NCBI RefSeq assembly: GCF_028736925.1
Contig: NZ_JAQZAT010000021.1
Coordinates: 1 to 64,000, forward strand
DNA length: 64,000 nucleotides
Direction of reading: 5' to 3'
DNA from: Flavivirga sp. 57AJ16
GTDB lineage: Bacteria > Bacteroidota > Bacteroidia > Flavobacteriales > Flavobacteriaceae
In this document: positions 7,084 to 17,228 of the stretch, in pieces
Layout of the letters: each line of letters begins with the position of its first letter
Position numbering within the stretch: position 1 is the stretch's first letter
Notes under the pieces: generated by a model
The model's database searches: none
What the model was told of the DNA's origin: nothing
The model's input: only the letters and a program-made list of their open reading frames with translations
Made by a program: the position numbers and the translations under genes

Positions 7084-8649
7084 ATGGTTACTACAGATTA
7101 TTTAGTTATTGGCTCTGGTATAGCGGGTTTAACGTTTTCGGTTAAAATTGCAGAAAAATTTCCAGATAGAAAGGTCATTATTGTTACAAAAGCTAACGAA
7201 GACGAGTCCAATACTAAATATGCCCAAGGCGGTGTTGCCATAGTTTTAGATAAAGAACAGGATTCCTTTAAAAAACATATCAAAGATACCCTAATTGCCG
7301 GTGATGGTCTGTGCCATGAAGCCGTTGTTAAACTGGTTATAAAAGAAGGCCCAAAAAGACTGAAGGAATTATTGCTTTGGGGGGCCAATTTTGATGTCAA
7401 TGCCAACGGAAAATTTGATTTGGGAAAAGAAGGGGGGCATTCGGAATACCGAGTGGTCCATCATAAAGATATTACGGGTTACGAGATAGAGCGCGCACTA
7501 TTAGAACGCGCGCACCAATTATCAAATATTACCATTCTACCACACCATTTTGCTATAGACCTGGTTACCAATCATCATATAGAAAGCTATAAATCTGAAA
7601 CCTTATCCTGTTTTGGAGCTTACATATTTAATCAAAATACAGGTGATATTTTCACCATAAAAGCGAACAGTACACTGCTCGCTTCTGGAGGTATAGGTTG
7701 TGTATATGGGCATACAACGAATCCGGTTATTGCAACTGGAGATGGTATTGCGATGGCCTATAGAGCCAAAGCGCGAATTAAAGATATGGAGTTTGTTCAG
7801 TTTCATCCAACGGCTTTATATGAAGAAAAAGGAGAATCTTCGTTCTTAATTTCAGAAGCTGTTAGAGGGTTTGGTGCATATCTTCGTAATAAAAAAGGCC
7901 ATCGTTTTATGCCAGATTATGATGAGCGCGCCGAATTAGCTTCTAGGGATATTGTATCACAAAGTATAGATAGTGAATTAAAAAAATCGGGAGAACCCCA
8001 TGTTTATTTAGACTGTACGCATTTAGATATAGAAGCATTTAAAGGTCATTTTCCCAATATCTATAAAAAGTGTTTAGAGCGCCATATAAATATAGAAACC
8101 GATTGGATTCCTGTCATCCCTGCATCCCATTACTTGTGCGGGGGGATCAAGGTCAATAAAAAAGGAAAAACAACTATTAGTCGTTTATTTGCCTGTGGTG
8201 AGTGTTCTAGAACGGGTTTGCATGGCGCAAATAGGTTGGCGTCAAACTCGCTTTTGGAGGCTTTGGTGTATGCCCATAATATTTTTAAGCACCATAGTAA
8301 ACACGATTATAAGTCGCCAGATATTATAATTCCAGATTGGAACGATGAAGGGACGACCATTACCGAAGAGCATATTTTAATACAACATAACCTAAAACAG
8401 CTACAAGCTTTGATGAGGAACTATGTAGGTATCATAAGAAGTAACAAACGCTTAAAAAGAGCCATAAAACATTTAGATTTAATTTATAACGAAGTTGAAG
8501 ATCTTTATAAAGAATCCAAGATAACCACATCGCTCTGCGAACTAAGAAATATGATTAATGTATCTCACTTAATTATCAGGCAATCTTTAGATAGAAAGGA
8601 AAACAAAGGGGGGTATTTTAATGTTGATAATGTTAAAAGTACAAGGTGA
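7084..8649 (+). CDS. nadB: L-aspartate oxidase
   Basis: This FAD enzyme oxidises L-aspartate to iminoaspartate, the substrate of NadA. The 521 residues start with the dinucleotide-binding VIGSGIAGLTF. Then come the aspartate-oxidase signatures SNTKYAQGGVAIV, VHHKDITGYEIE, FVQFHPTALY, SEAVRGFGAYLR, PASHYLCGGI and the FAD-contacting GLHGANRLASNSLLEA. The C-terminal helical domain is present and length is normal. It is directly coupled to nadA (2-bp gap) and converges on the kinase gene behind it, with only 7 bp between. Confidence 0.96.
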   Translation: MVTTDYLVIGSGIAGLTFSVKIAEKFPDRKVIIVTKANEDESNTKYAQGGVAIVLDKEQDSFKKHIKDTLIAGDGLCHEAVVKLVIKEGPKRLKELLLWGANFDVNANGKFDLGKEGGHSEYRVVHHKDITGYEIERALLERAHQLSNITILPHHFAIDLVTNHHIESYKSETLSCFGAYIFNQNTGDIFTIKANSTLLASGGIGCVYGHTTNPVIATGDGIAMAYRAKARIKDMEFVQFHPTALYEEKGESSFLISEAVRGFGAYLRNKKGHRFMPDYDERAELASRDIVSQSIDSELKKSGEPHVYLDCTHLDIEAFKGHFPNIYKKCLERHINIETDWIPVIPASHYLCGGIKVNKKGKTTISRLFACGECSRTGLHGANRLASNSLLEALVYAHNIFKHHSKHDYKSPDIIIPDWNDEGTTITEEHILIQHNLKQLQALMRNYVGIIRSNKRLKRAIKHLDLIYNEVEDLYKESKITTSLCELRNMINVSHLIIRQSLDRKENKGGYFNVDNVKSTR

Positions 8650-8656
8650 GTCATAT

Positions 8657-11038
8657 TTAAGCAATCCTAAGGTCCTTGTTAGGCGAATTGTTGTTAGTGT
8701 TTTTATTAAAATTACAAGCGTATATTTTTTTAAAAAGCAACTCTTTGTTTACGGGTTTGGTCATATAGTCATTCATCCCTAAATCTAAAACCTTTTTTTT
8801 GGTTTCCTGCATGGTGTCTGCAGTAATAGCAATAATAGGGATGGTATGTATAGAGGCTCCCAATTCACCACTTCTTATTATATGTGTAGCTTCATAGCCA
8901 TCCATAATGGGCATTTGTAAATCCATCAAGACCATATCGAAAACATCTTTTTTTAGAGCCTCAATGGCTTCCTGTCCATTATTAGCAATAGAGAAAGTTA
9001 TTTGAGAAGCGTTGCCCAATATTTTTTTCATGACCAATTGGTTAAGCTTGTTGTCTTCAACCACAAGAACATGCAATGGCATTTTGTTATTTAGACCAGA
9101 AGAAGTAACCATGCTTTCTTTTGCCACACTTTTTAATGTTAAATCAATAAAAACATCGGTACCAACACCTAATTCGCTTTCAATTTTTATAGTACCATTA
9201 AATAATTCCACAATATGTTTTACTATAGTTAAGCCTAAGCCAATACCACCGTATTGTCGTTTATGGTTAAGCTTCATTTGATTAAAGCTATCAAAAATAT
9301 GCGCTTTGGTTTCTTGTTTTATTCCTACACCAGTATCAGAAACCTGAAAAGAAAAACGGCATAAATCATCGGATAATTTTAAGCATGTTAGTCTGAAAAA
9401 AATAGTTCCTGTTTCGGTAAATTTAACGGCATTTGCCAAAACGTTATTAATAATTTGAACAAATCGTTTGGAGTCGGCATATACTTCAAAAGGTATGTCG
9501 GGATCCATCTCAAAAGTATAATTCAACGCTTTCTTTTCTGCCTCATTTTTCCAGTTATTGCTTATTTGCTTTAACTTTATTGAGGGGTTGAAGTTTGAAG
9601 AACTCAGCTCGAGTTCGTTCTTTTCAATTTTTTCAAAGTCTATAATGTCATTCACATTACTTAATAAACTTAGTGAAGCATTTTTAATAATTTGATAAGA
9701 CTTTTTATTCTTTTCGCTTTTTTGGGATTCCAATTCATGTTCGGCTATTCCCATAATAGCGTTAATAGGTGTTCTTAATTCATGGCTCATATTGGACATG
9801 AAATAGGTTTTTAACTTGCTGATCTCTTCGGATTTATTTAGTGCTTCTTCTTGAGATTTTTCTTTTTCAAGTCTTAATTGTTTAATTAAATTGGTCATTG
9901 ATAAAGAAAGAAAAATAACCTCAAAACCAGAACCAAATTTTGCGCTATTAAGAATGATGAAGCTATTGGGTAAAAGGCTTAGGTTATTCATTACAAAACC
10001 TAGTAACCCTATCACCAAAAAGAGGATACCAAATGAAAAGTAAGGGTCAATTTTTATACGCTTAAACTGCATAGTAAAAATGGTTGCTAAAATTAATAGT
10101 AGGCTAAATAAACCATTTATATTACTAAGTGGGTATGCTATTTTAAGCGTATTTTGGTTTATAAAGAGCATTATAAACAAAACTGCCAGAACATAATAGA
10201 TTATATTGAACCCCTTTTTAAAACCTTTTAACTTGTTATTTACTTTTAGAAAATGTTGACAGTATTTCAATAAAAAGAAATTTGAAAACAGTGCGGTAAT
10301 CAGCACGGCTCTATGGTCCAGGTATCCAGCTCCAGGGAATATATATTCGTGTATTAAACCATCTAGAGCGGCTTGCATAAACCCAATGGATAAAACATAA
10401 AAACCATAATACAAAAATGCTTTTTCCTTTAAGCTCGAATAGAAAAACAAATAAATAACACTTGCCAGGAAAAGCAAACCATAAAACAGACCAAGGAATA
10501 GCTGTTGATTATAATTAGCCATCCAGAAGGAAGGCTCGTCATAAAGCTTTAAGGGGAGGTTTATGGTTTCTCCATCGCTGGCAAGATGTATGTATATTTG
10601 TTGGGTTTCTTGTGGCGGAAGCGTTAATTTAAAAATAGTAGACCTGTGTTTGACTTGTTTTTTGTTAAAAGGAATAAGGTCGCCACTTTTATAATGTTTA
10701 ATGGTGCCATTACTTATCTGGTAAAGATTAACTATATCGGTAATTGGTCTTGCAGTTTCTAAGTAGTAATTATCTGGATTGTCCGAGTCATTTTTTAACT
10801 TGAATCTTACCCAATAATTATCTGAAGTGAATCCCAAACTGTGATTATCGGATTTCAGATTTTGATATTCGATTAACGGATTTTCTAAAATTTCGGTGAT
10901 AGTTCGTATTGAATCCCCAACATTTGTAAATTCGGCATATTCATAAAGCCCCCCTTTACTTTTTTGAATGCTGAAAACATCATTTTGAGCAAATAAACTA
11001 TAGCTGAGAATATATACTAGTAATAGTAAACGTTTCAT
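8657..11038 (-). CDS. 7TM-DISM hybrid sensor histidine kinase with receiver domain
   Basis: The order is signal peptide (MKRLLLLVYILSYSLFAQ), an extracytoplasmic 7TMR-DISMED2 beta-sandwich (~30-170), seven membrane helices (~180-385), a coiled coil, HisKA with phospho-acceptor His in MSHELRTPINAI (~418), HATPase_c (NNVLANAVKF, DTGVGI, GGIGLGL), then a receiver domain (VVEDNKLN, phospho-Asp in MDLQMP ~704, ITA, TKP). Intramolecular phosphotransfer is expected. No DNA-binding output or Hpt domain is present, so it must signal through a partner, which is not encoded nearby. I prefer the ATG at 11038 over a TTG at 11062 because it places the signal peptide at the N-terminus. The N-terminal domain often binds carbohydrates, but its ligand is unknown. 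Confidence 0.9.
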   Translation of the reverse strand: MKRLLLLVYILSYSLFAQNDVFSIQKSKGGLYEYAEFTNVGDSIRTITEILENPLIEYQNLKSDNHSLGFTSDNYWVRFKLKNDSDNPDNYYLETARPITDIVNLYQISNGTIKHYKSGDLIPFNKKQVKHRSTIFKLTLPPQETQQIYIHLASDGETINLPLKLYDEPSFWMANYNQQLFLGLFYGLLFLASVIYLFFYSSLKEKAFLYYGFYVLSIGFMQAALDGLIHEYIFPGAGYLDHRAVLITALFSNFFLLKYCQHFLKVNNKLKGFKKGFNIIYYVLAVLFIMLFINQNTLKIAYPLSNINGLFSLLLILATIFTMQFKRIKIDPYFSFGILFLVIGLLGFVMNNLSLLPNSFIILNSAKFGSGFEVIFLSLSMTNLIKQLRLEKEKSQEEALNKSEEISKLKTYFMSNMSHELRTPINAIMGIAEHELESQKSEKNKKSYQIIKNASLSLLSNVNDIIDFEKIEKNELELSSSNFNPSIKLKQISNNWKNEAEKKALNYTFEMDPDIPFEVYADSKRFVQIINNVLANAVKFTETGTIFFRLTCLKLSDDLCRFSFQVSDTGVGIKQETKAHIFDSFNQMKLNHKRQYGGIGLGLTIVKHIVELFNGTIKIESELGVGTDVFIDLTLKSVAKESMVTSSGLNNKMPLHVLVVEDNKLNQLVMKKILGNASQITFSIANNGQEAIEALKKDVFDMVLMDLQMPIMDGYEATHIIRSGELGASIHTIPIIAITADTMQETKKKVLDLGMNDYMTKPVNKELLFKKIYACNFNKNTNNNSPNKDLRIA

Positions 11039-11310
11039 GTTTGGGGCTTTGGGTACTTCCAAACATAACTAAAAATTGTTGGTTTTAGACTTTTTAACGG
11101 AAAAAACATTGTTTTCGTCTAATAAAAACGCATTTCGTCGATAAACATGTTAAAAAGAGAGTGTCTAAAAAGCGTCATTTAGAATGTGAATGTACCTGTA
11201 CCTGCCTTGCTGCAGGAAGAGAATCCATCAAATTAAATATTAAACAAGAACTCATATTATTTGGGTCTTCATCCTCTTGATTAATTTTTCTTATCATTTC
11301 ATTAAATTGT

Positions 11311-11345
11311 AGGAAAAACACCCTGTAACGTAGGGTGTTTTTCCT
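11311..11345. terminator. Strong bidirectional hairpin upstream of the VOC gene
   Basis: Perfect 14-bp stem AGGAAAAACACCCT / AGGGTGTTTTTCCT with a 7-nt loop. No gene ends just before it. It lies between two divergent genes (kinase start at 11038, VOC start at 11475), so it may insulate the cassette or be left from a lost gene. The rest of 11039-11474 holds only a degenerate AAAAAGAG...GTCATT palindrome half near 11157, related to copies at 20655 and 22905. Confidence 0.7.
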
Positions 11346-11350
11346 GTTAC

Positions 11351-11377
11351 TTTGGTCGCTTAATTTATAAACATTTG
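11351..11377 (+). promoter_or_regulatory. Possible promoter of the radical SAM / oxygenase cassette
   Basis: TTTG at 11351-11354 followed by ACATTTG at 11371-11377 approximates the Bacteroidota -33 / -7 pair (TTTG and TAnnTTTG). The -7 match is imperfect. It would leave a ~95-nt leader that contains a GGTTCT / AGAACC inverted repeat. Confidence 0.35.
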
Positions 11378-11474
11378 CAATTCATACCATATTGCTCAAT
11401 AAAAAATAATAAAGGGTTCTTTATTTTTTATAGGAGATTAATCATTTTTTAGAACCTCAAAAACTAATTCAATA

Positions 11475-12074
11475 ATGAGTTCACACCTTAAGTTTGTTGA
11501 GCTACAAAACATTCGACTTGTAGTTTCAGATTTAGATGCAGCCTCGGAATTTTACCGTGATGTTTTTGGTTTCATTGAAATGCAGTCGCATGAAAAAATC
11601 AATGATCCAGTACTTACATCGTGGTTTGGTTTCGGTGACAGGCCAAAAGAATTGGACATAAATATTAGATTTATGTTCATTCCAGAAGTAATGACTTTGG
11701 CTCTAATGAAGCCAGAATTTAAAGATGGCAGGCACAAAAAATGGCACCCATTTGGTAATACAAATGAAATAACCGGTGGTTTTCAAGGATATGGTGTAGC
11801 GCCCATTTCCTTTTTAGTGGAAGACTTAGATGCTGCTTATAAGCATATTCTAAGCTTTGCACAAGATCCTTCATATGATAATATATCCATATCGGCACCG
11901 CCTCAAAAGCTCAGCCCGATTAAACCACATCAAGTAAGTGCTTCCAAAAACAGCATTATTCATGGTAACACAGCACTTTTGGAACGTTATCGTAAAGTCT
12001 GGGAAACACGGGAAAACTTCCACTTTAGAGATCCTTTTGGGATTCATTGGGTATTATGCTCCAATGTTGTTTAA
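11475..12074 (+). CDS. VOC (glyoxalase/bleomycin-resistance) superfamily protein
   Basis: This 199-residue protein has two VOC beta-alpha-beta-beta-beta halves: LQNIRLVVSDLDAASEFYRDVFGF at the start and APISFLVEDLDAAYKHI in the middle, ending in RDPFGIHWVL, the usual last strand. VOC proteins bind a divalent metal or small molecules and act as isomerases, dioxygenases or binding proteins; the reaction here cannot be read. It is the first gene of a same-strand run ending at 16409, 27 bp before the small protein at 12102. In that setting it may be a tailoring enzyme or a binding partner. A pocket insert of about 50 residues (residues ~130-175) lies between the second half and the last strand. 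Confidence 0.82.
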   Translation: MSSHLKFVELQNIRLVVSDLDAASEFYRDVFGFIEMQSHEKINDPVLTSWFGFGDRPKELDINIRFMFIPEVMTLALMKPEFKDGRHKKWHPFGNTNEITGGFQGYGVAPISFLVEDLDAAYKHILSFAQDPSYDNISISAPPQKLSPIKPHQVSASKNSIIHGNTALLERYRKVWETRENFHFRDPFGIHWVLCSNVV

Positions 12075-12101
12075 TGTTTAACTTAAAAAAATCTAATTAT
12101 T

Positions 12102-12287
12102 ATGGGATGGACACATCGCGCTGGCGCTCAAATGCTAGCATTATATCCAGAATTGGCCAATGTTCCTGAGTTAATGGAAAGGTGGCCTGCATTAAGACTT
12201 GCTGTACAGGAATTACGTTTAGGTAATGAAGGAAAAGATAAAAGCAATGACTTAAATGATGGGAACGGAAAGAATGATAAAAAATAA
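12102..12287 (+). CDS. 61-residue small protein, candidate modified-peptide precursor
   Basis: No known family is recognised. The N-terminal ~43 residues look like an ordered amphipathic segment with repeated Pro-(Glu/Ala)-Leu units (YPEL, VPEL, WPAL) and end in a Gly (LRLGNEG). The last ~18 residues are low-complexity and built almost only of Lys, Asp, Asn, Gly and Ser (e.g. NDLNDGNGKNDKK). This two-part layout matches a leader plus core peptide. The gene lies between a VOC gene and genes for a radical SAM enzyme and two Fe(II)/2OG-type oxygenases, and is followed by a terminator-like hairpin. The Asx-rich tail suits Asp/Asn hydroxylation. A RiPP precursor is the leading idea; a small structural or regulatory protein is the alternative. 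Confidence 0.65.
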   Translation: MGWTHRAGAQMLALYPELANVPELMERWPALRLAVQELRLGNEGKDKSNDLNDGNGKNDKK

Positions 12288-12300
12288 TTATTAAACTAAT

Positions 12301-12338
12301 AAGGTTAGGGGAAAGTACCAAGTATTTTACCTAGCCTT
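12301..12338 (+). terminator. Partial terminator (attenuator) between precursor and enzymes
   Basis: AAGGTTAGG pairs with CCTAGCCTT (one G-U) and the stem continues inward through GAAAGTAC / GTATTTT with a 3-nt CAA loop, about 17 pairs. It is followed by TATTATTAT rather than a pure T run. It lies 13 bp after the small gene and 16 bp before the radical SAM ATG. Such a leaky stop would give more small peptide than enzyme, as in many peptide-modification loci. Confidence 0.7.
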
Positions 12339-12354
12339 TATTATTATACATGAA

Positions 12355-13680
12355 ATGATGCTGAATAATTTTCCAAAAGAAACCGTTTATGCATACCCAA
12401 ATTGGCATATTTCCGGGCACTATAAGTCAATTTCTAAATTAGAAGAAGCACAAAATTTTCGTTTGGATAATGGACCCACTGCTATTTATGTGCACGTACC
12501 ATTTTGTTATACATTATGTCAGTTTTGTGGCTTTACAAAAACAGATGATTTTAATAAATCTGATTTGGATGATTTTGTTAAAATTACTTGTGCTGAAATA
12601 GATTTGGTTGCCGATAAGTTTCAAATTTTTGATCGCTCTATTGATGCTATTTATTTTGGAGGCGGGACGGCATCCGTATTATCCATAAATCAAGTGGAAA
12701 GAATTTTTAAGCATATATATGCGACATTTAATGTAAAAGATAATGCAGAGTTAAGCTTTGAAGGCGAATGTAGAAGTATGATAAAGACTGGGTTTGTTGA
12801 AGGTTTAGCTAAATTAGGGTTTAATAGAATTTCTTTTGGAGTTCAAACCATGGATGTTGGTGCGCGAAAGGCTTTAAATTTAAAACCAACAATTAAATCG
12901 CTAGTCGATTTGACCCGTAAGGGAAAGGCATTATTTGAAGAAGTTGCTGTAGACTTTATTTATGGCTGGCCAGGACAAACAACCGATATGGTCCTAACGG
13001 ACATTAATGAGTTGTGTGAAAAGCTAGAGCCTACTGTCATTGAAGTTTTTCAATTTGAGAAATCTGATGCTTCGCCATCTTTTCTGAATCATCTATACAA
13101 TAGTGGCCTAAGGGATGCATCTACAGAAGAGCTCCAAAAACAAATGGAAGTCTTGGAAACGGCGTTAAGGCATAGAGGGTTTTCACGTAAATCATTTACA
13201 ATTTTTGCCAATAGCACATTCATGCCCACACAAAAATCATCTAATTATTTACCCTGTTTTTATGGCTATAATGCCTCCACAGTATTAGGTTTTGGGAGAG
13301 GCGCACAATCTTGGTACGGTGGTTATATGTGGTCTTGCTCACTTTTGCCCGAAACACATAAAACGTTAATTGAGAATGGAACACTTCCGGTATCGGTTCT
13401 TGGAAATTATGACACAAACGAACGGGAGGCAACATCGTGGGTTAGAAGAGGATGGGTAAGTAAGCACTTTGTTAATGATCAAGATGATTATTATGTAAGT
13501 AAAATAAATGAATTAATAAAAAACGGCTATGTTCTTGACGATTCCAATAAGTACTTGCTTACAGATTTAGGATGGAAATGGATTCCTTCCCTTTTATACT
13601 TTTTAATGCCTGAACATCAACAGGCCCTATACTCACGTGATTTTGATTTTAATGAAATTGGACGTGTTCCGGTTAACTAA
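12355..13680 (+). CDS. HemN-like radical SAM enzyme
   Basis: The 441-residue protein has the radical SAM cluster motif CxxxCxxC in PFCYTLCQFCGF (Cys51, Cys55, Cys58), the SAM-binding FGGGTAS (102-107), a further strand ISFGVQTMD, and DFIYGWPGQT. This is the order seen in HemN/coproporphyrinogen-dehydrogenase-like enzymes, and the C-terminal third resembles the HemN winged-helix domain. It is unlikely to be the housekeeping HemN: the neighbourhood has no haem gene and the first 40 residues before the barrel are unlike HemN. HemN-like enzymes include methyltransferases and cyclopropanases of natural products. In this cassette it probably modifies the 12102 peptide. The reaction cannot be predicted. 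Confidence 0.85.
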   Translation: MMLNNFPKETVYAYPNWHISGHYKSISKLEEAQNFRLDNGPTAIYVHVPFCYTLCQFCGFTKTDDFNKSDLDDFVKITCAEIDLVADKFQIFDRSIDAIYFGGGTASVLSINQVERIFKHIYATFNVKDNAELSFEGECRSMIKTGFVEGLAKLGFNRISFGVQTMDVGARKALNLKPTIKSLVDLTRKGKALFEEVAVDFIYGWPGQTTDMVLTDINELCEKLEPTVIEVFQFEKSDASPSFLNHLYNSGLRDASTEELQKQMEVLETALRHRGFSRKSFTIFANSTFMPTQKSSNYLPCFYGYNASTVLGFGRGAQSWYGGYMWSCSLLPETHKTLIENGTLPVSVLGNYDTNEREATSWVRRGWVSKHFVNDQDDYYVSKINELIKNGYVLDDSNKYLLTDLGWKWIPSLLYFLMPEHQQALYSRDFDFNEIGRVPVN

Positions 13681-13692
13681 ATAATTTTAATT

Positions 13693-15150
13693 ATGGCATA
13701 TATTAAAGAACTTAAAACAGGAGTTTTGGCGGCAATAGAAAACAAACTTTTATTGTTTGGCGAAACATTACATTTTACCGATCAAGCAATAGAGCATAAA
13801 GATAATGCAGATTTAAGCTATGGATGTATTTTGGCTATTAAAGAAGCGCGATATGATGATGCCGAGGAAATTGCTAAAAAAGCCATATCTTTTTTTCCGT
13901 CCAGTGTTGAGTTTTACCATAACTTAGGCATAATTAGGCATGTACAAGGGCAGTTGGATGTTGCAGCAGCATATTTTGAAGTATGTATTTTATTAAATCC
14001 ATATTTTGATCCGGCTATCGACAATCTTGCTAATGTACGCCTTACCCAGAACAACCTTAAAGGGGCCCTACGGGCTGCCTTAAAGCTGGAAAAAGTGGTT
14101 CCTGGACTTTCCGATAATGCTTTTCGGATAGGAACCATATATTTAAGAAGAGGTAAATACAAAAAGGCCAATGACTGGTTTGATCGTGGTTTAAATGCAC
14201 GTATTCCACAACGTTTATCAAGAATGCTTTCTTATGGAACCATTACAGCGCCACGCCTAAAAAATGACCTAGAACAAATAAAGTACATGAAATCACAAGG
14301 CATTCTTGATCCTTTCTACGATGAGGTTATCAAACAATACGAACGTCTTCTTGAAAATTCGCCACAACCGAAAAAGAAAAATGATTGGACAGAAGATCTG
14401 GATCAGGCATTGTGCTCATCAGACCTTCTTTGTATAGCTCCTTTTTACAGGAGATCATTACATATAGAGCCTTGCGACCGTGTAAAAGACTTAGCAATTA
14501 ACCCATTTAACAGCAAGCAAAAGATTTTGGACCAATGGAAGCAAAAAAAGCCATATTCCTTTGTTGTGATTGATGATTTTTTAAACCCCGAAGCATTAAA
14601 GTCATTACAAGCGTATTATTTAAAGTCGACTATTTGGCACAATGATTCCCAGAAAGGTAGAAATTATATAGGAGCCTATAAAGAAATGGGGCTGTATACC
14701 CCCTTAATGGAACAGATTATCGAAGAGTTTAAAGAGGGATATGGAGACATTGTTAAGGATCACCCTTTAAGGGAACTTTGGGCATACCGTAATGTTACCG
14801 GAGATCATGCCATAGGGGCTCATGCAGACTTTTCAGCTGTTAATTTAAATATTTGGATAACACCAAATAAGGCCAATTATTCGCCAGAAAGTGGTGGTTT
14901 GATAATATATCGTTCCATATGCCCGGACAAATGGGATTTTGATGATTATAATGGTGATCAGACCCAAATAGAAGATTTTATTTCTGGGGCCGAAAAATAT
15001 ATAATTCCCTATAAGGAAAATAGGGCCATTATTTTTAATGCGGCTCTTTTTCATGCAAGCGATTCAGTAGATTTTGGTTCAAACTATGAGGATTGGAGAG
15101 TAAATACTACTTTTTTATTTGGAGATCGTAAAACCCATAAATCGTATTAA
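13693..15150 (+). CDS. TPR-repeat protein fused to a 2OG-Fe(II) oxygenase domain
   Basis: Residues ~40-220 form tetratricopeptide repeats (YDDAEEIAKKAISFFPSSVEFYHNLG, GQLDVAAAYFE, GKYKKANDWFDRGL). Residues ~285-480 look like a prolyl-4-hydroxylase-type oxygenase: SFVVIDDFLNPE start, iron ligands His377-x-Asp379 in GAHADF, GGLIIY, distal His454 in ALFHASDSV, and Arg469 in DWRVNTTFLF as the likely 2-oxoglutarate contact. The TPR part could hold a peptide substrate, the C-terminal part hydroxylate it. The gene starts 12 bp after the radical SAM gene and ends 5 bp before the JmjC-type gene, so they are surely co-transcribed. It is soluble and has no signal peptide. Confidence 0.82.
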   Translation: MAYIKELKTGVLAAIENKLLLFGETLHFTDQAIEHKDNADLSYGCILAIKEARYDDAEEIAKKAISFFPSSVEFYHNLGIIRHVQGQLDVAAAYFEVCILLNPYFDPAIDNLANVRLTQNNLKGALRAALKLEKVVPGLSDNAFRIGTIYLRRGKYKKANDWFDRGLNARIPQRLSRMLSYGTITAPRLKNDLEQIKYMKSQGILDPFYDEVIKQYERLLENSPQPKKKNDWTEDLDQALCSSDLLCIAPFYRRSLHIEPCDRVKDLAINPFNSKQKILDQWKQKKPYSFVVIDDFLNPEALKSLQAYYLKSTIWHNDSQKGRNYIGAYKEMGLYTPLMEQIIEEFKEGYGDIVKDHPLRELWAYRNVTGDHAIGAHADFSAVNLNIWITPNKANYSPESGGLIIYRSICPDKWDFDDYNGDQTQIEDFISGAEKYIIPYKENRAIIFNAALFHASDSVDFGSNYEDWRVNTTFLFGDRKTHKSY

Positions 15151-15155
15151 TAGGT

Positions 15156-16409
15156 TTGGACTATAAGTTGGATCATATTGAAGAGATCGTTCACTTTAAC
15201 CATGAATTTTGGTTGCGGTTTGTAAAAAACCATTGGACAAAACGGCCATTAAAGATTGAAAACCCATTTTCGGAAAAAATAACGGATGAAGCGACTATAT
15301 TTTCTGCATTAAAAGAAGCAGGGAAAAGTTTTAAAACCAAAGAGCATGTGAATTTTGGATTATGGGTCGATGGCCATACAGCGGTTAATTATGGACGGTT
15401 ATTTGCACAGGATTCAGATGATAATCTGGAAAATTACCTAAAGCGCATATTAAGTAGCGGTCATGACGAGTTTTGCTATGCACAATTTAATATGCAATGT
15501 TATGCTCTTGATTTATGGGATGCTGCTAAGGATTTTATTAAAGGGCTGATAGAAATTGTTGGTATACCAGCTGGAGAGCTGGATACCGATATTTTTCTGG
15601 GCTGTTATAAAAAGACCCCAAGAGGTATACATACAGATGCAGCAGAAACATTTATGCATGTAATAAAAGGGCCAAAAACCATTGCCTTATGGCCAAAAGA
15701 ATATTTTGATGATAAGTATGTTGCTATTGCCGGGGAGGGGTTGAATAAAACGATACTGGTTGACGAGATTGAGCCTTACATGAAGGACGCCATAATTTTA
15801 AAAGGAAATACAGGAGACATGTTATATTGGCCTGCTTCTTATTGGCATATTGGGCTACATGATTATTCTGTAGAGGCCTTCGATTATAGCTTGGCCTTTA
15901 ATATTGGGTATTTTCATTTCCAAAAGGAAGATGGCATCGTAAGGGACATGGTAAACGATCTTTTCGATACACTATCTCGGGAGCATATGGGGGCTACTTC
16001 CATTAAAAACTTGTTAGCCATCCCGCCTTTAGAAAAAATAACGCAGAAAATGCTTCAGACTATTATTGGAAGCCATCAGTTTTTAGAAGAACTGGAGCAA
16101 AATTGGCTTAAACATGCTTCGGGGTTTGGGTTTTACGAATTGCCCAGATTATGTAATAAAAATGGTGATACCGCTTTAAGTTATCGGTTACGAAATAAAA
16201 ATGATAACGTTCAATTAAAAAAAGTAGGAGAAAATTATTTTCTTTTTACCTCTGGATATGGAAAAATAGTTGAATGGGATGAATGTCTTGAATCTGCAAT
16301 TTTTGATTTAAATGCGGGTAGGAGCACCAAAAAACTAAGCTTGGAAATTAAAAGCCTATTGCTCAGTTGGCACTCAATTGTTCCTGTAGATATAGCTAAA
16401 TCCATATAA
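15156..16409 (+). CDS. JmjC/cupin-type Fe(II) oxygenase
   Basis: The N-terminal stretch FWLRFVKNHWTKRPLKIENPF is typical of cupin-8/JmjC hydroxylases. Iron ligands are visible as His159-x-Asp161 (RGIHTDAAETF) and His231 (PASYWHIGLHDY), with Lys174 a possible 2-oxoglutarate ligand. The C-terminal ~170 residues form a helical/winged domain as in ribosomal and Asp/Asn hydroxylases. The start is a TTG at 15156, 5 bp after the previous stop; no ATG lies before the conserved N-terminus. The last six residues and the TAA stop lie inside a MITE (16391-16553), so the original C-terminus has been replaced. Two non-homologous oxygenases in one cassette suggest two hydroxylation sites or steps. Confidence 0.78.
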   Translation: MDYKLDHIEEIVHFNHEFWLRFVKNHWTKRPLKIENPFSEKITDEATIFSALKEAGKSFKTKEHVNFGLWVDGHTAVNYGRLFAQDSDDNLENYLKRILSSGHDEFCYAQFNMQCYALDLWDAAKDFIKGLIEIVGIPAGELDTDIFLGCYKKTPRGIHTDAAETFMHVIKGPKTIALWPKEYFDDKYVAIAGEGLNKTILVDEIEPYMKDAIILKGNTGDMLYWPASYWHIGLHDYSVEAFDYSLAFNIGYFHFQKEDGIVRDMVNDLFDTLSREHMGATSIKNLLAIPPLEKITQKMLQTIIGSHQFLEELEQNWLKHASGFGFYELPRLCNKNGDTALSYRLRNKNDNVQLKKVGENYFLFTSGYGKIVEWDECLESAIFDLNAGRSTKKLSLEIKSLLLSWHSIVPVDIAKSI

Positions 16410-16553
16410 AATAACATGAACCTTCAGAGTAAAAAACCGAATTTCTTCGTTAAAAATACTCGCCGTAACTAGGTTATGCCTACGCTTTTTAACTAGAACT
16501 TCAATTTTTTATATCTAAATATTCTATGCCATTTTATATCGACTTAGCTATAT
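16391..16553. mobile_element. MITE copy 1 (163 bp)
   Basis: Ends in inverted repeats TATAGCTAAATCCATATAAAAT and, on the other strand, TATAGCTAAGTCGATATAAAAT (20 of 22 identical). The inside is shared almost base for base with the copies at 21199 and 54337 (for example AAAAATACTCGCCGTAACTAGG). It has no coding capacity. TA flanks both ends, so a TA target is possible. It overlaps the 3' end of the JmjC-type gene. Confidence 0.85.
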
Positions 16554-16559
16554 ATGAAA

Positions 16560-16622
16560 AAGAGACGCTCTAAAAAGTACTCGGTAGGATAATTTTTCGT
16601 TTCCAATACTTTTTAGGGCGCC
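16560..16622 (-). terminator. Terminator-like long hairpin after ssb
   Basis: On the minus strand GGCGCCCTAAAAAGTA pairs with TACTTTTTAGAGCGTC across a ~30-nt loop and runs into TCTCTTTTTC. It lies 13 bp past the ssb stop. The CTAAAAAG core resembles the palindromic repeats at 11157, 20655 and 22905. Confidence 0.6.
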
Positions 16623-16635
16623 TTATTAGGAAAGT

Positions 16636-16977
16636 TTATTGTGATTTATTTCCTGTCATTAATAGTTCGTTACAAACGACTTCGGTGATGTATCTTTTAT
16701 TTCCTTCCTTATCATCATAGCTACGGGACGTTAACTTGCCCTCAATAGCGATTTCTTTTCCTTTCGTTACATATTTCTCAATGATCTCTGCCGTTTTGCC
16801 CCAGGCTACAACATTGTGCCATTGGGTGTCCGTGATTTTTTCACCGTTACTATTGGTGTAGCTTTCATTTGTTGCCATAGTAAATTTGGCTAAAGTTCTA
16901 CCTGACTCTAGATTGATGATTTCCGGATCGTTTCCTAAGTTACCAATCAACTGTACTTTGTTTCTAAGCGTGTTCAT
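16636..16977 (-). CDS. ssb: Single-stranded DNA-binding protein, short form
   Basis: An OB-fold SSB of 113 residues: MNTLRNKVQLIGNLGNDPEI, FTMATNESYTNSNGEK, WHNVVAWGKTAEI and the YVTKGKEIAIEGKLTSRSYDD strand pair. It ends right after the OB fold and lacks the acidic C-terminal tail that recruits repair proteins in E. coli SSB, as in many small Bacteroidota SSBs. It is probably a secondary copy rather than the replication SSB. It is a single gene, divergent from the DinB pair. A small ACCCTGAA / TTCAGGGT hairpin lies in its leader at 17014-17034. Confidence 0.9.
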   Translation of the reverse strand: MNTLRNKVQLIGNLGNDPEIINLESGRTLAKFTMATNESYTNSNGEKITDTQWHNVVAWGKTAEIIEKYVTKGKEIAIEGKLTSRSYDDKEGNKRYITEVVCNELLMTGNKSQ

Positions 16978-17228
16978 AATTTTAAATTTTAATCGTTAAA
17001 CAGTTAATGTATAACCCTGAACTCATTTCAGGGTCTTTTAAATTCAATGTAATTTTTTTTGTGAAAAGTACTGAAGCAAGCCAATACAAATTCAACACTG
17101 CAAATATGAAACGGCTTCCAAATTTTATTCGGTACTTACTTATTTAAAATCGCTTGTAAATGTTTGTAGTCGTTTGTAAATGGTTATATTTTTGTATATT
17201 AGGCAATTATATAAAACAACAGAACAAA

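Follow-up and report, generated by a model that had tools for sequence, protein, structure and literature searches.

A five-gene cassette in Flavivirga sp. 57AJ16 that may encode a RiPP-type peptide tailored by a HemN-like radical SAM enzyme and two Fe(II) oxygenases

A compact cassette with a coding small frame

The stretch of DNA analysed here, called the window below, covers positions 1 to 64,000 of contig NZ_JAQZAT010000021.1 (assembly GCF_028736925.1) of Flavivirga sp. 57AJ16, a member of the Flavobacteriaceae. Our subject is a cassette of five open reading frames (ORFs) at 11475-16409, all on one strand (+), with intergenic gaps of 27, 67, 12 and 5 bp. It encodes a VOC-superfamily protein, a small protein, a HemN-like radical S-adenosylmethionine (SAM) enzyme, a protein in which TPR repeats are fused to an Fe(II)/2-oxoglutarate (2OG) oxygenase domain, and a JmjC/cupin Fe(II) oxygenase (Table 1). 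A preliminary description, made without database searches, had reported five same-strand genes with gaps of 5-67 bp, a CxxxCxxC motif and two sets of iron ligands, and read the whole as an undescribed peptide-modification cassette; the arrangement and every motif are in place.

Table 1. Features of the cassette and of the segment that contains it
Feature	Position	Strand	Basis or remark
VOC-superfamily protein, 199 aa	11475..12074	+	Pfam Glyoxalase 8.1e-11
Small protein, 61 aa, proposed substrate peptide, with a 21-residue K/N/D/G-rich tail	12102..12287	+	codon score
HemN-like radical SAM enzyme (441 aa) with proposed methylase-like chemistry	12355..13680	+	Pfam Radical_SAM 1.1e-13
TPR repeats fused to Fe(II)/2OG oxygenase domain, 485 aa	13693..15150	+	Pfam TPR matches, TPR_2 2e-12
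JmjC/cupin Fe(II) oxygenase with extra C-terminal region, 417 aa, TTG start	15156..16409	+	Pfam, motifs
7TMR-DISM hybrid histidine kinase, possible regulator	8657..11062	-	Pfam domains; same insertion as cassette
Segment without counterpart in congeners L118 and L119	8639..16637		7999 bp between nadB and ssb

The 61-residue ORF, which follows the VOC gene and precedes the radical SAM gene, is coding. Of 1216 wrong-frame windows taken from known genes, none reaches its codon score of 0.44 bits per codon, and the score is still 0.42 once three cassette genes are removed from the training set. The earlier view of a compact cassette around a coding small frame holds. An ATG ORF of equal length arose in 0.64% of 5000 simulated 280-bp spacers, and the antisense ORF, longer than the small ORF itself, has a negative codon score. 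The tail of the protein, GNEGKDKSNDLNDGNGKNDKK, is made up largely of four kinds of residue (K5 N5 D4 G4 of 21), and the protein would be the precursor of a ribosomally synthesized and post-translationally modified peptide (RiPP). It occurs at one place only in its own genome.

Among the enzymes, the radical SAM protein carries its CxxxCxxC motif as C51, C55 and C58. Its top NCBIfam model is ChuW/HutW (6e-41, 140.6 bits versus a cut-off of 400), its sequence relatives in the PDB are HemN (1olt, 4e-22) and the methylase NocN (9p2u, 3e-17), and it also matches the HemN and HemW models, which are not methylases. Class C radical SAM methylase activity uses two SAM molecules. The 2OG domain of the TPR protein finds no Pfam match at E up to 1; its ligands H377, D379, H454 and R469 are invariant across seven aligned proteins. 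The JmjC enzyme falls narrowly below the Pfam cut-offs for Cupin_8 (9e-6, 26.1 bits, cut-off 27.4) and JmjC_2 (9e-4, 19.2 bits, cut-off 22), the latter being cleared by its relative L126, and its iron ligands HxD...H are present as H159, D161 and H231. To the eye, the C-terminal region of this family looks like a RiPP recognition element (RRE). The VOC protein matches two of 72,556 plasmid records at E 1e-5, with 23.8% identity.

JmjC relatives and their neighbouring peptides

At 1e-4, a JmjC profile matches 156 of 249 family genomes. Among the matches listed, the long (410-437 aa) and strong ones (1.9e-32 or better) are the window's own protein and those of G001, G243, G012 and G019; the next match stands at 5.9e-8, and most others lie in frames near 290 aa. 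We compared 15 loci with long JmjC relatives, a non-random set consisting of 10 out of 31 plasmid records, locus L007 and the four long relatives from other family genomes, and distinguished the kinds of peptide by eye. A small or repeat peptide is present in 12 of the 15. It lies 65-536 bp from the JmjC gene in seven loci and 1.5-2.5 kb away in five, always within 2.6 kb; in those five other enzymes intervene, as they do in the window cassette, where the distance is 2868 bp.

These peptides are of very different kinds. In G001 (L018, 7370-7677) two tandem precursors share the leader MKNSNPEKFLDTQELSALENQTL[KT]GG and differ in the Lys-rich cores that follow GG, the only relative locus at which a conserved leader and a variable core were found; a bacteriocin-type peptidase ABC exporter lies nearby (best model 1.5e-132, below its cut-off). 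In L099 (6408-6581) and L131 (4779-4988) a GG-leader peptide with a core of 17-18 consecutive glutamines is accompanied by a JmjC gene and a peptidase-type ABC exporter, the JmjC and exporter genes of L131 being in pieces. In L098 an assembly gap occupies the place of the peptide (about 8676-9239), and its edges, read on the other strand, appear to encode polyglutamine. L006 (5146-5343) and L125 (5081-5254), plasmid-borne clusters of arginase, JmjC, cupin and MFS-like genes, hold a peptide of 57-65 aa that ends in GRDRxDTGH and is encoded on the opposite strand, with the arginase gene between. Two unannotated ORFs, specifically sought in L134 and L135, share 31 identical C-terminal residues and end in PRQDVGH; the two endings are alike and may be related. 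L126, L132, L133, L136 and L137 encode (LKxGxRPDA)n peptides or near variants, and the Streptomyces clusters of this kind also carry desaturase, amidinotransferase and arginine deiminase genes. L007 has LanM-like and LanC-like genes, its ORF listing covering frames of at least 100 aa only. The JmjC tree has long branches, and we do not rely on its grouping of the window protein with Nonomuraea (0.978).

Enzyme contexts, rarity and genomic setting

The relatives of the TPR-2OG enzyme give a mixed picture, since of eight bacterial loci three are RiPP-like, two are metabolic operons and three are undiagnostic. In L004 (6006-6713) and L012 (7790-8689), repeat-rich proteins (GTEMSPG and DATDSTGTD, respectively) directly precede the 2OG oxygenase and an FkbM-type methyltransferase follows it (by Pfam for L004, by eye for L012). 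L014 (7756-15159), from a Bdellovibrionales metagenome-assembled genome, has two TPR-2OG copies, a 66-aa ORF, a sulfotransferase, a PqqD-family protein above its cut-off and at most 5 kb from those copies, and a signal-peptidase-like gene below its cut-off.

A number of results weigh against a peptide substrate. The TPR-2OG relatives L005 and L008 lie inside hydantoinase operons, and nothing in the available flanks of L011, L013 and L015 points to a peptide. A relative of the 2OG domain is also found in 48 viral contigs (L020-L067), at 31-39% identity. The radical SAM enzyme matches 387 plasmid records, with 22.6-32.2% identity among the 30 matches listed, and the four relatives from these records whose neighbours were read lie with MFS, P450 or AdoMet decarboxylase genes; the context of the HemN-like enzyme gives no support for a peptide. 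The earlier claim of an undescribed peptide-modification cassette is supported in part: the JmjC relatives recur in clusters with small peptides, while the TPR-2OG and HemN-like relatives occur also in contexts that do not suggest a peptide. With the TPR-2OG contexts mixed and those of the radical SAM enzyme unsupportive, it is chiefly the JmjC enzyme and the coding small ORF that carry the peptide reading.

Nor is the JmjC evidence uniform. Peptides near JmjC genes are not always adjacent to them, and at L100 (same genus) none was recognised beside the JmjC relative. In all five (LKxGxRPDA)n loci HxG replaces HxD, a ligand change known from Fe/2OG halogenases; because the Asp ligand is absent the chemistry of this clade may differ, and its members could be peptide halogenases. 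A small-ORF control found no coding-like same-strand ORF of 40-80 aa within 1 kb at any of 15 generic-cupin loci (25 were taken, 10 of them dropped for having no plus-strand 200-aa ORF across the centre). The same filter recovered the L018 peptides, missed that of L099, found none in L098 with its gap, and in L100 picked a fragment judged by eye to be a piece of an oxygenase; it recovered the window peptide with a flank of 3.2 kb, whereas 1 kb would miss it. The control is therefore weak.

The small protein itself has no match at E 1 in 11 other genomes of the genus or in the 72,556 plasmid records, and nine chosen genomes gave only four weak matches (E 0.2-1.0, one with stop codons). The preliminary description had held the absence of homologues beside the enzymes elsewhere to speak against a peptide cassette, and in the genomes and records searched they are literally absent; yet the JmjC relatives still have a peptide as their partner, though one with a different sequence. 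Comparison of the JmjC C-terminus with PqqD gave an hhalign probability below 1% with shallow profiles (10 and 4 sequences), no free-standing PqqD matched in the genome, and no leader peptidase or exporter was recognised in the insertion described below. RiPP clusters often have a recognition element and a nearby peptidase or exporter, but neither is indispensable.

Could the enzymes instead tailor a small molecule, with the 61-residue protein as a carrier, chaperone or partner rather than a substrate? The hydantoinase operons, the P450, MFS and AdoMet decarboxylase neighbours and the want of a recognisable exporter or peptidase would all fit such a role, but the clustering of JmjC relatives with peptides in 12 of 15 loci does not, and no enzyme that would start a biosynthesis is seen in the cassette. 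We regard this alternative as unlikely, while the most serious of those considered.

Rarity bears on a further alternative. The radical SAM enzyme stands alone among 395 phylum genomes at E 1e-35 and is joined by one 29% match among 299 family genomes at 1e-30; used as bait against genome contigs it gave 84 candidate stretches, none of which was confirmed. The TPR-2OG protein likewise finds only itself among the 395 at 1e-10. A single-sequence search with the JmjC enzyme found its own genome and G001 out of 395 at 1e-5, and the profile found its own protein only in 169 class genomes at 1e-15. No second locus with the same gene set turned up in the genomes sampled, which also counts against the peptide cassette, and would suit genes that came together by chance or are decaying and share no joint function. 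Such a collection is at odds with the tight same-strand packing, the open frames, the intact ligand motifs and the position of the genes in one block, and we consider it improbable.

BLAST homology to the congeners L118 and L119 ends at 8638 and restarts at 16638-16641. The unmatched stretch between nadB and ssb measures 436 bp in L118 and 151 bp in L119, with no ORF of at least 80 aa in either; L120 has three different ORFs there, and in L117 nadB falls outside the stretch compared. Of the 11 other genomes of the genus, four were compared here; as its contents differ among the congeners, the nadB-ssb interval is variable. The histidine kinase is absent from this interval of L118 and L119, the rest of those genomes not having been searched. 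Cassette and kinase together form an accessory insertion of about 8.0 kb. Among the repeats listed over 8600-17000 (20 direct repeats out of 29, and 25 inverted ones out of 38), neither a target-site duplication nor element ends are apparent. Scans of the window for tRNA genes and Rfam families found nothing, and a promoter/terminator scan returned 19 and 5 sites versus 26.8 and 4.4 in shuffles. From rarity and insertion together we infer a horizontal origin.

This setting bears on the idea that the enzymes modify a host protein, with the 61-residue protein as adaptor or regulator. Known JmjC hydroxylases modify proteins, and weak profile matches of the JmjC family to protein hydroxylases (YxbC and a putative asparaginyl hydroxylase lead with 1.3e-3, followed by FIH and JMJD5 at 0.2-0.3) point the same way. 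A cassette in an accessory insertion, a small protein that the 11 other genomes of the genus do not match, and JmjC relatives in peptide clusters argue the other way, and we give a host-protein target little credence.

A proposed pathway and its known counterparts

On balance we lean, by a little over an even chance, towards a RiPP-type cassette gained by horizontal transfer, whose enzymes modify the tail of the peptide. For the pathway we infer substrate, residues, order of steps, radical SAM reaction, recognition and regulation. The 61-residue protein would be translated and its N-terminal part would serve recognition, while the 21-residue Lys/Asn/Asp/Gly tail would be the modified part. Hydroxylation of tail side chains (Lys, Asn or Asp) would fall to the JmjC enzyme, perhaps together with the TPR-2OG enzyme, whose repeats might hold the peptide, as had been suggested earlier. 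The HemN-like enzyme may add carbon to the tail by methylation or a similar reaction, the VOC protein might have a helper role, and expression may be controlled by the divergent histidine kinase. The Lys-rich cores of G001 make Lys a good candidate residue. Hydroxylation of Asx in the tail, which had been suggested earlier, is a guess, and the nearest parallel, G001, offers a Lys-rich core. No transporter or peptidase is recognised in the insertion, so genes outside it must provide for export and for removal of the leader.

The preliminary description knew of no RiPP class with this set of enzymes, and among the matches listed in the open PMC literature no paper with the gene set is apparent. 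One of the closest counterparts is the biphenomycin (bip) cluster, in which, according to the part of the paper available (PMC12707348), the JmjC enzyme BipG is a peptide ornithine hydroxylase; a JmjC Fe/2OG enzyme acts there on a ribosomal peptide with a radical SAM enzyme in the cluster. That text also gives bip an MNIO, a B12-type radical SAM enzyme, an arginase (TPR-annotated gene BipC), a TldD peptidase and an MFS protein, none of which is recognised in the window cassette; the window instead has the HemN-like enzyme, the TPR-2OG protein and the VOC protein, in which it differs from bip as far as the same text goes. A second paper, likewise available in part (PMC12710340), describes JmjC proteins of fish and algae that carry a fused RRE-like fold and whose bacterial homologues lie in RiPP-like surroundings. 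The window enzyme shares with these fusions a JmjC domain with an extra C-terminal region, but the fusions described are from fish and algae, and an RRE in its own C-terminus is at most a possibility, given the low hhalign value above. NocN, a HemN-like class C radical SAM methylase and a sequence relative of the window enzyme, belongs to the nosiheptide/nocathiacin pathway, whose genes, as far as the source covers them, are not recognised in the window. Within Bacteroidota, L018, L099 and L131 also pair a JmjC relative with a small peptide; they differ in having a GG site and an exporter, which the window cassette is without, and L018 and L099 have no radical SAM or TPR-2OG match.

Whether the cassette stands for a new RiPP class is a more tentative matter, which we place somewhat short of an even chance. 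In such a class a HemN-like radical SAM enzyme would decorate a single charged Lys/Asn/Asp/Gly tail together with two distinct Fe/2OG oxygenases, and one of these would belong to a widespread JmjC family whose peptides differ greatly in sequence (Lys-rich, polyglutamine, GRDRxDTGH and LKxGxRPDA repeats). If this is true, enzymes of two oxygenase families converge with a HemN-like radical SAM enzyme on one peptide, and the case points to a JmjC family that tailors peptides in Bacteroidota, Pseudomonadota, Actinomycetota and Cyanobacteriota. This family may include peptide hydroxylases and, in the HxG clade, halogenases.

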